NCBI GenBank assembly: GCA_003246895.1
Contig: QKCL01000004.1
Location: 1-45,876 of the forward strand
Reading direction: 5' to 3'
Origin: Spirochaetota bacterium
GTDB taxonomy: Bacteria; Spirochaetota; UBA4802; UBA5550
Length of the DNA: 45,876 nucleotides
Position numbers and translations under genes: made by a program
Shown: positions 9,539 through 14,789 of the stretch, in pieces
Layout of the letters: each line of letters opens with the position of its first letter
Position numbering within the stretch: the stretch's first letter is position 1
Notes under the pieces: model-generated
What the model was told of the DNA's origin: nothing
Database searches by the model: none
The model's input: only the letters and a program-made list of their open reading frames with translations

Positions 9539-10933
9539 ATGAATATGACAAAAAGAGAATTCAATATTCCGGAGAATTTTTACAGAGATCTCCGGAGTTT
9601 TATCAACACCTTTCAGGAAAAGGGTTTTCAGTGCTACCTCATAGGGGGCTGCGTACGTGACCTGATTCTTGAACATGACATATACGATTATGACTTCGCA
9701 ACAGATGCCCGTCCTGAAGATGTTATGAAACTCTTCAGAAGGGTTGTGCCCACAGGTGTCAAGCACGGTACAGTTACTGTTCTGGTACACGGCATGGAAT
9801 TCGAGGTCACAACCTTCCGGGCAGACGGGAAGTACATCGACGGCAGAAGGCCCGAAAAGGTTCATTTTTCCGATTCACTTGAAGAGGATGTAAAGAGAAG
9901 GGACTTTACAATCAACGGACTGGCCTATGATATAAATGACAACAGGGTTATTGACTATGTTAAGGGCATTGCGGATCTTGAAAAGGGTATAATCCGCACA
10001 ATCGGAAGCCCCATGGACCGTTTTTCAGAGGACGGCCTCAGAACATACCGTGCATGCCGGTTTGCCTCAAAACTGGATTTTGAAATAGAGAAGGAGACCC
10101 TTTCGGCCATCAGCAGAACTCTCCATGTGGCGGAACTTGTTTCAGTTGAAAGAATCAAGGACGAGATCATGAAACTTCTCGGTACAGCAAAGCCCTCTGT
10201 GGGTTTTGAATACATGAGAGAAACCGGCCTTCTGAAACTCTGCCTTCCGGAACTGGACCTCTGCTACGGAGTTGAGCAGAACAAGTACCATGTTCACGAC
10301 ATATACTATCACAGCCTCTATGCATGCGACGCCGCGCCCAAGGACCAGCCTTTGATAAGGCTTGCGGCGCTTCTTCACGATATAGGCAAGGTCAGGACAA
10401 GAAGGGAAGGCGCAGACGGAGATTATACTTTCTACAACCATGAGGTAATCGGCGCAAGAATGGTTAGAAAACTAATGCGCAGACTGAGATTTTCAAACAG
10501 CGACCTGGACACTGTAAACAATCTCGTCATTAATCATATGTTTCACTATACCGATGACTGGAGCGACGGTGCGGTCCGGAGGTTCATGAAAAAGGTGGGA
10601 GTTGATAATATCGAAGACCTCTTCTCTCTCAGGGAGGCTGACCGGGTCGGAAACGGTTCAAGAAGCGGACTCCCTGAACCCATAAGGATTCTCCAGAAGC
10701 GGATAGACATTATAATTGAGGCCGAGAACGCCATCTCCGTCAGGGATCTTGACATAAACGGGAATATAATCATGGAACTCTTCAGCATCAGGCCCGGGCC
10801 TGCAATCGGCATAATACTGAATGATCTCCTTGAGCTGGTGCTGGACGACCCTGAACTCAATACTCGTGAGATTCTCATTGAAAACGCGAAGAAAATATGG
10901 TCAGCTCTGGAAGAGGAGGGAAAAGCCAAGTGA
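9539..10933 (+). CDS. cca: CCA-adding tRNA nucleotidyltransferase / poly(A) polymerase family protein with HD domain
   Basis: The 464-residue product belongs to class II tRNA nucleotidyltransferases. Residues 20-160 are the nucleotidyltransferase head: GGCVRDLIL, then YDYDFATDA with the two metal-binding Asp residues, and RRDFTINGLAYD. A poly(A)-polymerase-type RNA-binding region with YRACRFASKL follows. An HD phosphohydrolase domain at about 255-370 contains LLHDIGK and NHEVIGARM. Such HD-containing forms usually add or repair the 3' CCA of tRNA, though poly(A) polymerase activity cannot be excluded from sequence. No ribosome-binding site precedes the ATG, and a TATACT lies only nine bases upstream, so the mRNA may be leaderless. 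Its last 33 bases overlap the convergent barrel gene. Confidence 0.88.
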   Translation: MNMTKREFNIPENFYRDLRSFINTFQEKGFQCYLIGGCVRDLILEHDIYDYDFATDARPEDVMKLFRRVVPTGVKHGTVTVLVHGMEFEVTTFRADGKYIDGRRPEKVHFSDSLEEDVKRRDFTINGLAYDINDNRVIDYVKGIADLEKGIIRTIGSPMDRFSEDGLRTYRACRFASKLDFEIEKETLSAISRTLHVAELVSVERIKDEIMKLLGTAKPSVGFEYMRETGLLKLCLPELDLCYGVEQNKYHVHDIYYHSLYACDAAPKDQPLIRLAALLHDIGKVRTRREGADGDYTFYNHEVIGARMVRKLMRRLRFSNSDLDTVNNLVINHMFHYTDDWSDGAVRRFMKKVGVDNIEDLFSLREADRVGNGSRSGLPEPIRILQKRIDIIIEAENAISVRDLDINGNIIMELFSIRPGPAIGIILNDLLELVLDDPELNTREILIENAKKIWSALEEEGKAK

Positions 10934-12493
10934 CAGGTTTTTCTCTGACCTCCCCCTGGAACGTTCATCTTCATATCTGAAGAATGAACTGCTCTTTCCT
11001 GTTCTGCAGCCTGCCCGGGCTGCATAGACCGAAGTCTTTTCCCAGTAGAATCTTCCTGAGAATGTCCCACTTTCCACAGGGTCTGGTGTAAAGTATATGG
11101 GTAAATCCCTGTCCGGGTCAATGTATGAAAATCCTGCTGACAATTCGAAACCGCTTGTAATTAATAATTTCACTGAAAGGGATGCGCCTGCTGAATATGT
11201 TCCCTTATCCTCCTGGAGAACGGATTTAAGTGAAAGTGAAATGTACGGGGCCGGGGAGGCTGTGAACTTAAATGTTCCCTGTCCGGTTCCGGTTTCTCCG
11301 TTGTAAGTGAGTCTCTTGAGTTTCAGCAGGCAGGAGACAGACTTTCCATATTCTGTTTTCAGGTGCAGTTCCTGAACAGTTTTTCTGTCAAGCTCGGTGT
11401 CGTACCTGTCGGGAGTGAGGTCCCTTTCACTGTAGAATCTGGTTCCCAGGGCCGTAAAATCTGTAAAGGCATATGACATTTTAAGTTCAATTATCCGTTC
11501 AGGCCATGTCCTTCCGGAAGAGTGGGGAGAGTAGAAGTTCCTGTCACAGTCCTTACCGGAAAAGGAGAAAGACGTCCCCTTCTCCTTCATGGAAATTCCC
11601 CATGTCACTGCTTTTCCGTTTCTTGTTTTTTCATCCATGAACGATGAGGCCGCGCCTTCCACATGGGCGCTTAGAAAACTGTCCCTGAATGAAAGAAATG
11701 CCCCCATGTTGCGGGCTCTGGTGATACCGGTGTCTGAACAGTCTGAATCCATGTACCACTTCAGAGGGGAACCGTCCTCGTCGGCAAGTTCTGTCTGAAT
11801 AATGCAGTATCCCAGTGTGAGTTTTTTTAAAAGTGTGGAGGAGAGAATTATTCCCCTGTCCATAACAAATACCGGAGTCCGTGATGTTCCTGTGCAGTAT
11901 ATTTTTGAGAGGACCGTGTCCAGGGATGATCCTGTGCCTCCTGCTGAAACGTCCTGGTCGCTGATGTATCTGGTTCTGCGGGAGATGAATGCTGTCACAG
12001 AAGATGAATAGAATGAATTTATGCCGCCGAACGGGCTGACCTGCAGTGCCATGCCCATGAAGGGGTACAGGGGGCTTGAGTCTCCGGCAAGGGAGATTTG
12101 CCGGCCGCCGGGTGAGAAGAGCCTGGAGGAGAATGGATCTCCGCCCATGAACACCTTTTTCCCCAGGACAAGTCCCGTGCCGAAAGAGGTGGTGTATGCG
12201 CCGGCAATAATTTTTAAAATGGATCTGTCGCTGCCCGATGAAAAACCGAACGTGTAATAGTCTTCGCCCCTGTCTGCGTTGCGGTAGACAGACGATTCCG
12301 CCCTGAGACAGTCCATTGCCGAAACCGATACTGTTCCCCTGAAGTACCGGTTTTCCGCTCCGCTTTCATAATCCTCTATGTCCTGTCCGTATCTGAAACT
12401 CACAAGCGCCGAGTGCTGCGGTGCTGAAGCTTTTACCGGGAAAGTCACGGCAAAGACTGATGCAATGAACGGGAGAATTATTTTTTTGCGCAG
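10901..12493 (-). CDS. Predicted exported beta-barrel-like protein with a non-standard start
   Basis: The body is a long series of alternating amphipathic strands rich in Ser, Thr, Tyr and Gly, ending LSLGFSLLFQS; this is the pattern of an outer-membrane barrel. No ATG begins the frame. The first usual start codon is a GTG at 12448, but the codons before it encode RKKIILPFIASVFAV and an Ala-Ser-Ala cleavage site, a clear signal peptide. That places initiation near a CTG at 12493, overlapping the end of the previous gene. Alternatively the frame is entered by slippage on the seven-A run (12481-12487). The upstream gene encodes a helix-hairpin-helix surface protein. Function unknown; the 3' end overlaps cca by 33 bases. 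Confidence 0.65.
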   Translation of the reverse strand: MRKKIILPFIASVFAVTFPVKASAPQHSALVSFRYGQDIEDYESGAENRYFRGTVSVSAMDCLRAESSVYRNADRGEDYYTFGFSSGSDRSILKIIAGAYTTSFGTGLVLGKKVFMGGDPFSSRLFSPGGRQISLAGDSSPLYPFMGMALQVSPFGGINSFYSSSVTAFISRRTRYISDQDVSAGGTGSSLDTVLSKIYCTGTSRTPVFVMDRGIILSSTLLKKLTLGYCIIQTELADEDGSPLKWYMDSDCSDTGITRARNMGAFLSFRDSFLSAHVEGAASSFMDEKTRNGKAVTWGISMKEKGTSFSFSGKDCDRNFYSPHSSGRTWPERIIELKMSYAFTDFTALGTRFYSERDLTPDRYDTELDRKTVQELHLKTEYGKSVSCLLKLKRLTYNGETGTGQGTFKFTASPAPYISLSLKSVLQEDKGTYSAGASLSVKLLITSGFELSAGFSYIDPDRDLPIYFTPDPVESGTFSGRFYWEKTSVYAARAGCRTGKSSSFFRYEDERSRGRSEKNLSLGFSLLFQS

Positions 12494-13782
12494 AGTCCTG
12501 ATATGGCCTCCCTCTCCGCAGGAGTGAGTTCACTGTCCTGTGACATGAAATATCCGAGTCTTGCCCTGTCAAAGACGGAAATCTCCGAGTATTTAAGGGC
12601 CCTTGATGCCCTGACCCCCCTTGACAGCAGTTTTTTGAACATAACCCTGACTCTTGCTTTTTTCTCAAGAAGCCATGACTTCCGGGAATATCTTTTTTTA
12701 GGGCCCCTGCTTTTCAGAAAGTTATCCCTTTCAAGGCCGTATATACAGGGAAGAATTTCCCTTATCTGCCATGCACTGAGTCCGGCCCTTGCCAGTGCCT
12801 CCTGTGAGATGGGCCCGAATTTTTCCCTGTAAGCAGCAATTCTCCGTGCCATGGTCTCGTCTATGTGCGGAATTTTCAGAAGTTCTTCATGTCCTGCAGT
12901 GTTTATGTTTATGAGTTCCATTTGGGGGATGACGCCGTCCCCATCTCCTTCACCAGTTTTTTTTGCATGGTCCGGAGCAGTTGTGTCTGTCCCCGGGATA
13001 AAGGAGATGCCCATTCTGTGGCTGTAGCCCAGAAATTCGTGGTGGCTCAGCCCGTAGTCAAGAGTCATTCTGCCCAGTATTACTGATACGGACGATGTGA
13101 AGGTTTCTGTGCCCTGGGAGTACCCTGCCCTCACTATTAGTGCCGGAAGGGGCCTTGAGGTGAGGGAGAATGAATTTATTTTTCCCGAAGAGCTGCGGGA
13201 GATGTTCCATGAAAAGGAGATGAGTCTTCCCCGCATGAGTGTAAAGCCTGCGCAGTCAAATGATTCGGGGCCGTATCCTCCTTCGAGGTATGACCTTATG
13301 TTTGTTTTCATTAAAGAAACCGTTAGAATTTCAAGGGGCCTAGATGAAGCAGAAAGGCCGAAGTCACAGAATGCTTCACTGCGGGAGAGCCCGCCGCCGG
13401 AAATATTAAGGCTCCGGATGGAGCCTTCCGCCCCGGCGGAGAAGTACTGGAACGGGGAAAGAGCCCCGGACATGGAATATGTGTTTTCCCTGTAAAAGTC
13501 TGTGCCGAAACTCTCCCACCTGAAGAGAAAGCCGGAATGTTTCCAGGGAAATGAAACCGAAGCAGATGATGTTTCGATTTCACTGCCGTAATATGGGCGT
13601 CCGCATGAGAAATGCGAATTGAACCCCTTTGTAAATGGTATGAGTGAAGGGGTGGTTATTTCCCCGGGAAGAATGTATTCCTGTGATGCGTATGGATATG
13701 GAAAATGTGCAGTTGCTCCGCCGCTGCTGTATTCAAAGGACTGCACAAAGTACAGTGCCGCAGAAACAATGAGCGCATGCAT
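12478..13782 (-). CDS. Exported protein with ComEA-like helix-hairpin-helix domain
   Basis: The 434-residue product starts with a short hydrophobic signal (MHALIVSAALYFVQSF). Residues 20-285 are strand-rich and barrel-like. Residues about 290-345 form a ComEA-type helix-hairpin-helix pair (ELININTAGHEELLKIP, then ARRIAAYREKFGPI), known for non-specific DNA binding. A basic helical stretch follows, ending SGLCAKK. The start overlaps the stop of the lamin-tail gene as TAATG, indicating translational coupling. The last codons are GCA AAA AAA TAA, a slippery sequence; a shift of -1 would continue into the downstream barrel gene. In Bacteroidetes, helix-hairpin-helix segments and barrels can occur in one chain (from memory), so a fused product is possible. 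Confidence 0.72.
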   Translation of the reverse strand: MHALIVSAALYFVQSFEYSSGGATAHFPYPYASQEYILPGEITTPSLIPFTKGFNSHFSCGRPYYGSEIETSSASVSFPWKHSGFLFRWESFGTDFYRENTYSMSGALSPFQYFSAGAEGSIRSLNISGGGLSRSEAFCDFGLSASSRPLEILTVSLMKTNIRSYLEGGYGPESFDCAGFTLMRGRLISFSWNISRSSSGKINSFSLTSRPLPALIVRAGYSQGTETFTSSVSVILGRMTLDYGLSHHEFLGYSHRMGISFIPGTDTTAPDHAKKTGEGDGDGVIPQMELININTAGHEELLKIPHIDETMARRIAAYREKFGPISQEALARAGLSAWQIREILPCIYGLERDNFLKSRGPKKRYSRKSWLLEKKARVRVMFKKLLSRGVRASRALKYSEISVFDRARLGYFMSQDSELTPAEREAISGLCAKK

Positions 13783-14789
13783 TACTTCATAACCATGGAG
13801 AACGTGAGAATCTTCTTCTGTGTACCGCCCTTGTCTGCAACAGCCTCAATATGGAAGAGGCACAGGCCGGTTTTCAGGGGCCTGGTGAAGTCTGCTTTTG
13901 TGAAGGAAAGTGAATGAAAGCCGGGAAAGAGTTTATCGCTGCTCCCCTTTGATGCGATTTTCACGCCGATGGAATTGAATACCCTTACCCTGATGGTGCA
14001 TTTTCTGAATATTTTGAAGTTTACCGATATCCTCTGATTGGGCCTGTCCATGGGGAATACCCTGGGTGTATTTACCACGGAGAATATTTTGCCCGAGTCG
14101 CCGTTTATAAAAATGTTCTCCCTGCCCGGCGTTGAAAAACCTGTCACTGCAAAGTCGGCCAGGCTGTTGCTGTCGGAAACCCTGATCCGCGATAAAGTTG
14201 ACCATTCATTGAGTCCGTCACTGCCCGTGAAGCAGCACCAGTCCTGTGGGTTCAGGGAACCGGTTTTGTTCCATGCAAGCATCGACACTGCGCAGTTCAG
14301 GTATTTTTCAATGTCGCTGTTTATGGAACCGTCCCTGTTTGAGAATGCCACGAAGTCAATGATGCCGCCGTTTTCCGGGTCATCGTCTGTGTCCAGGGCC
14401 ACGACACAGTCCGTGTTCCAGAGTCCGTAATTGCGGCAGTATATGTCCCTGATGCCGTTGCCGTTTATATCTCCTGCCGAATCTGTTTCACTTTCAAGAG
14501 TTTCGGAAGTGAAATGGATTACTGCGAATCGGTCGTCAAAGGGTGTTGCAGGGTCGTCTGCTGGTTTCAGTGTCACCGGAGAGGACGCAACAGGATAATT
14601 TGTGCCCCTGTACATGGTCACATAGAGGACTGAAATGTCCCGGTCTCCCTCTCCTCCATTGTGAAAAATTTCAACCCAGTCCGCTGAGCCGCCTGCGGAT
14701 ATTTCATTTATCAGTATTTCTGCTTCGCCATGGCCTGTGAATGTAAAAATTAAGGCAGCAGCCGCTGTGATTCGTATTATCTGTGTCAT
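13782..14789 (-). CDS. Exported lamin-tail-domain protein with C-terminal strand-rich end
   Basis: With the ATG at 14789 (AAGGA eight bases upstream) the protein has 335 residues. It starts with a signal peptide (ITAAAALIFTFTGHGEA). Residues 24-180 match the lamin tail domain: ILINEISAGGSADWVEIFH at its head, then DTDDDPENGGIIDFVAFSN. The C-terminal 90 residues (RVRVFNSIGVKIASKG...FHSLSF) resemble FlgD-like or type IX-type Ig modules. Lamin-tail domains occur in secreted nucleases and surface proteins. Here it heads an operon with a DNA-binding helix-hairpin-helix protein, so a surface role involving DNA is possible but unproven. A longer in-frame start at 14855 would bury the signal and is rejected. 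Confidence 0.72.
   Translation of the reverse strand: MTQIIRITAAAALIFTFTGHGEAEILINEISAGGSADWVEIFHNGGEGDRDISVLYVTMYRGTNYPVASSPVTLKPADDPATPFDDRFAVIHFTSETLESETDSAGDINGNGIRDIYCRNYGLWNTDCVVALDTDDDPENGGIIDFVAFSNRDGSINSDIEKYLNCAVSMLAWNKTGSLNPQDWCCFTGSDGLNEWSTLSRIRVSDSNSLADFAVTGFSTPGRENIFINGDSGKIFSVVNTPRVFPMDRPNQRISVNFKIFRKCTIRVRVFNSIGVKIASKGSSDKLFPGFHSLSFTKADFTRPLKTGLCLFHIEAVADKGGTQKKILTFSMVMK

Follow-up and report, generated by a model that had tools for sequence, protein, structure and literature searches.

Two overlapping genes on the minus strand of the 45,876-nt stretch of spirochaete DNA analysed here (the window) are best read as separate, translationally coupled genes, the second of which initiates at a CTG codon (12491-12493) that is a changed form of the ATG used by its relatives; we give this reading a probability of roughly 0.72. 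The upstream gene (12478-13782) encodes a protein of 434 residues with a helix-hairpin-helix domain (the HHH protein), whilst the downstream gene (10901-12493, as read from the CTG) encodes a protein of 530 residues with about 24 predicted strands (the barrel protein). The two overlap by 16 nt (12478-12493), from the start codon of the second to the stop codon of the first. The arrangement is of a known kind, with a rare start codon.

The HHH gene ends GGA CTC TGC GCA AAA AAA TAA, with its stop codon at 12480-12478; the final GCA AAA AAA TAA occupies 12489-12478 and holds a run of seven A residues (A7) at 12487-12481. The barrel gene, with AAA at 12487, is read in the -1 phase with respect to the HHH gene. 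Its frame runs open from 12529 as far as the stop at 10901, with no ATG, GTG or TTG until GTG 12448; its near-cognate codons in this region are CTG 12493, ATC 12502, ATA 12481 and ATT 12478. From CTG 12493 the frame reads (L)RKKIILPFIASVFAVTFPVKA, which is hydrophobic and resembles a signal peptide. A first-pass annotation of the window had already pointed to the GCA AAA AAA TAA end, the in-phase A AAA AAA heptamer and a downstream frame devoid of ATG, all of which were confirmed in the sequence. It had left three readings side by side (initiation at CTG 12493, -1 slippage giving a fused protein, or an A missing from the assembly) and had favoured separate export of the second protein; it is this last view, with initiation at the CTG, that the relatives support.

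The evidence comes chiefly from a comparison of 42 junctions, the window included (a set of 37 together with L004, L067, L071, L072 and L093). In every one, the start triplet of the barrel gene takes its first base from the third position of an HHH codon and its TG from the codon that follows, which encodes Cys (TGC at 12490-12492 in the window, where the TG completes the start codon). This NTG lies 10-22 nt upstream of the HHH stop codon and in the -1 phase throughout; the resulting overlap, counted through the end of the stop codon, is 13-25 nt long. The triplet is ATG in 38 of the 42 and CTG in the other four (the window, G008, G014 and G016). On the basis of third-base usage in the HHH frame, 9.4 ± 2.6 ATG triplets would be expected among the 42, and the maximum reached in 200,000 simulations was 21; these figures are inexact as probabilities, given the relatedness of the genomes and a usage computed from open frames in their entirety. 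Since 38 were observed, the overlap appears to be conserved by selection, and the ATG at the junction is clearly under it. The Cys residue itself (C431 of the HHH protein) is invariant in a 14-row alignment, and its codon is kept at all 42 junctions. Because its TG forms the start codon of the barrel gene, this conservation may in part simply follow from the overlap with that start rather than reflect a functional requirement. The starts could still be read in several defective loci, namely L004 (HHH frame broken), L009 (barrel frame broken), L040 (containing Ns), L013 (truncated where its contig ends) and G023 (split over two contigs). The broken-frame sites lie at 1395-1500 in L009 and near position 1300 (reverse strand) in L004, where assembly error, decay or slippage are all possible.

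CTG 12493 is located exactly at this conserved start position. G006, which has ATG at the junction, begins MRKVRIVVIAFF, the counterpart in the window being (L)RKKIILPFIASVF. Read from the CTG, the signal peptide (M)RKKIILPFIASVFAVTFPVKA (12428-12493; helix at residues 3-16 in the predicted model) has an n-region with a charge of +3, resembling the MRR/MRK starts of the relatives, and a core with a mean hydropathy of 2.65, compared to a median of 2.8 and a range of 2.22-3.52 in 35 proteins (the window included). A start at GTG 12448 was rejected: the hydrophobic core would be lost (0.45), and with it the signal peptide. Signal peptidase I disfavours proline at position +1. The signal peptide predicted in the first-pass annotation is present from the CTG, but its proposed cleavage after ASA would place a proline at +1, and a cut after VKA is therefore likelier. 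In a tree of 37 taxa (G023, G026, G034, G035 and G342 were left out), the window grouped with G008, g5 and g10, opposite all others, with a split support of 100. Within the window's clade of seven, CTG is found in four and ATG in three, and CTG is found in none of the other 35 junctions.

Under the mechanism that we propose, the barrel protein would begin at CTG 12493, decoded as methionine by the initiator tRNA. Ribosomes would terminate translation of the HHH gene at TAA 12480, 13 nt past the CTG, and then restart on the CTG, perhaps aided by a Shine-Dalgarno-like GGGAGG (12507-12512) 13 nt upstream of it. As the genes are separate, co-directional and share 16 nt in the -1 phase, translation of the barrel gene is probably coupled to that of the HHH gene; we infer this coupling, and likewise the actual use of the CTG.

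Several points weigh against initiation at the CTG, and it should be considered with these in mind. The codon is not one of the canonical starts (ATG, GTG or TTG) by which a coupled pair would normally be recognised, it is known from a single draft assembly (95 contigs), and a Shine-Dalgarno spacing of 13 nt is long. No 16S gene, whose 3' end would carry the anti-Shine-Dalgarno sequence, was found in the assembly. Furthermore, the other three CTG genomes (L006, L007 and L008) carry, 9 nt further on, an ATG or TTG that overlaps the HHH stop codon as ATGA or TTGA; having a usable start there, they provide no proof that CTG is used, and their start has apparently been relocated onto the stop overlap. 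The window has ATA at that place and is the only one of the CTG genomes to lack a canonical start. Shine-Dalgarno-like matches of at least 5 bases, at any spacing, were found at three of the four CTG junctions and at six of the 38 ATG junctions (Fisher one-sided p = 0.026), a comparison which is only suggestive given that two of the four CTG genomes are close sisters. GUG and UUG starts are reported to be accompanied by stronger Shine-Dalgarno sequences (PMC5622118). A further step, that the CTG is a fixed, working and deliberately weak start in this clade, dependent on coupling, perhaps compensated for by stronger Shine-Dalgarno sequences, and setting the ratio of two outer-membrane barrels, seems to us unlikely.

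The first-pass annotation had stated that an ATG start in relatives at this point would count against its proposal. Such ATGs were found, but they identify the start instead of refuting it, and they bring in an option that it had not listed: a base error in the assembly, with a true A at 12493 and an ordinary ATG at the conserved place. The ATG at 38 of the 42 junctions, the draft state of the assembly and the reported great rarity of switches from AUG to CUG starts (PMC5622118) would all fit such an error; however, three more genomes from the same half of the tree carry CTG at the identical place, so that C here is a recurring state, and both frames of the window are intact as assembled with no sign of error near the junction. 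We regard a base error as improbable, and to much the same degree we doubt that one of the other near-cognate codons is the start. Among these, ATA 12481 overlaps the stop codon as ATAA just where three relatives show ATGA or TTGA, and canonical starts overlapping the stop codon do occur in sister genomes; ATC 12502 lies 4 nt after the GGGAGG and would leave the signal peptide charged. Both ATC and ATA are nevertheless off the conserved start position, and a start at ATA 12481 or ATT 12478 would give a signal peptide without a positive n-region (charge 0).

The two readings that rely on the A run itself fare considerably worse, and both were rejected on the geometry of the relatives, the lack of conservation and the lack of structure. 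Programmed -1 frameshifting, or slippage of RNA polymerase, on the A7 would give an HHH-barrel fusion, and the A AAA AAA is indeed in the correct phase with a stop immediately after it and an AGGA 8 nt upstream. Transcription slippage in bacteria has, on the other hand, been described for runs of 9. Such a heptamer occurs within the doubly open stretch at only four of 37 junctions (the set to which this count was restricted) and between start and stop in the window alone (1/37). Folding of 81 and 91 nt of downstream RNA gave z-scores of -0.38 and +0.29, in a model that does not include pseudoknots, with no stimulatory structure. None of the 42 junctions is fused, the genes being separate everywhere, and in a fusion a hydrophobic segment would lie inside the chain, behind a part already exported, so that the barrel should be misplaced. 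Slippage is thus very improbable. Least credible is the loss of one A, by assembly error or mutation, with eight A fusing the genes: although the HHH frame of L004 and the barrel frame of L009 are broken near A- or T-rich runs, which makes run-associated indels, whether in the assemblies or in the genomes themselves, a reasonable general concern, the same -1 phase separates the genes at 42 of 42 junctions, the frames of the window are intact, and eight A would remove the HHH stop codon.

Nor does the A7 stand out within the window. There are 53 A/T runs of at least 7 in its 45,876 nt (12 of them of at least 8), and with so many the run at 12481-12487 is not special, contrary to its selection as a notable feature in the first-pass annotation; its place beside the junction appears to be incidental. 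A first-order Markov control gave 21.3 ± 4.4 such runs, the window thus holding about 2.5 times that number. What exceeds chance at this junction is the overlap geometry common to the 42 genomes, not the A run.

The junction, with its proposed initiation at CTG 12493 within a coupled pair, bears similarities to several known systems. Coupled overlapping pairs, in which termination and reinitiation take place at ATGA or TAATG (PMC6728339, PMC10666635), are alike in being co-directional, in having a start ahead of the upstream stop, in the conserved overlap and in encoding two proteins plausibly belonging to one membrane complex, but the usual overlap is 1 or 4 nt, as opposed to 13-25 nt here, and the start in the window is CTG. 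The natural CUG starts of bacteria (PMC5622118) share the replacement of an ancestral AUG by CUG; here, by contrast, the position is pinned by the overlapping Cys codon across the order, and use of the CTG is putative. Programmed -1 frameshifting of the dnaX type (PMC5009743) likewise involves an in-phase, A-rich heptamer. However, the heptamer here is A AAA AAA and not A AAA AAG, it is unconserved, no downstream structure was found, and the downstream frame has a conserved start of its own. An apparent frameshift or assembly error of this kind can be resolved by comparing the overlap geometry among relatives, which in this case leaves a natural CTG start as a well-anchored candidate. Gene callers would miss it: one limited to ATG, GTG and TTG would choose GTG 12448, at the cost of the signal peptide.

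The pair, which occupies 10901-13782, is found almost exclusively in one order of uncultured spirochaetes, and the HHH gene is upstream of the barrel gene in all 42 genomes with a barrel. The barrel protein was present in 39 of 59 genomes (its own counted). A search with a 32-row alignment detected it in 41 of the 46 genomes of the order, the five in which it gave no match being G007, G021, G030, G038 and G043, and, among 392 genomes taken from the phylum, in 42, the single addition from beyond the order being G342. A scan of named genomes with the single barrel protein P0002 found no relative, whereas a search of these with a 7-row alignment recovered 16 loci, all with ATG at the junction. 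Fifteen are titled as Spirochaetes, Spirochaetia or Spirochaetota metagenome-assembled genomes and one as 'uncultured bacterium'; they were kept out of the counts, as most of them seem to be contigs already represented among the G genomes.

Both products are predicted outer-membrane barrels. The HHH protein comprises a signal peptide, a FadL-like barrel (residues ~15-265), an HHH_3 domain (289-326; Pfam match 1.7e-8) and C-terminal helices ending in GLCAKK; the only other Pfam match listed at an expectation value (E) of ≤ 1 is a weak one to SAM_SMF. In the predicted model (mean predicted local distance difference test score, pLDDT, 76.1), its N-terminal half superposes on FadL (2r88_A) with a Z of 27.1 and a root-mean-square deviation (rmsd) of 2.5 Å over 237 aligned residues, and on 8gl6_F, from a type 9 secretion system entry, with a Z of 25.6 and an rmsd of 2.9 Å over 244. 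The latter chain we take to be PorV. The protein is thus predicted to consist of a FadL/PorV-like barrel followed by the HHH_3 domain and helices. Whilst it shares the barrel fold with FadL, a sequence match to that family was not found; identity to the FadL/PorV barrels is about 8-13%, and the C-terminal HHH domain and helices are additional to them.

For the barrel protein (mean pLDDT 84.9, the strands being counted in the predicted model), Pfam gave nothing at E ≤ 1, and nothing at E ≤ 0.01 for the barrels of two relatives. Its fold matches to the FimD usher, AlgE and OccK (Z 15-18, rmsd 4.4-8.2) are those of generic large barrels, and no family was assigned. The unbroken linkage and the overlap of the genes suggest that the two proteins may form a complex. 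Short overlaps are reported to be enriched among complex subunits (PMC10666635). A periplasmic role for the pair in nucleic-acid binding or in secretion is speculation. No pair of this kind was found in a literature search that required four of five terms together, and what emerges is an uncharacterised pair of outer-membrane barrels, always linked, from this order of spirochaetes.

The neighbour upstream of the HHH gene (about 14789-13782) had no Pfam match at E ≤ 0.01. It is joined to the HHH gene by TAATG at 13780-13784, an overlap of 1 nt, and three consecutive genes therefore overlap; judged by these joints, the operon looks to be coupled at both ends of the HHH gene.
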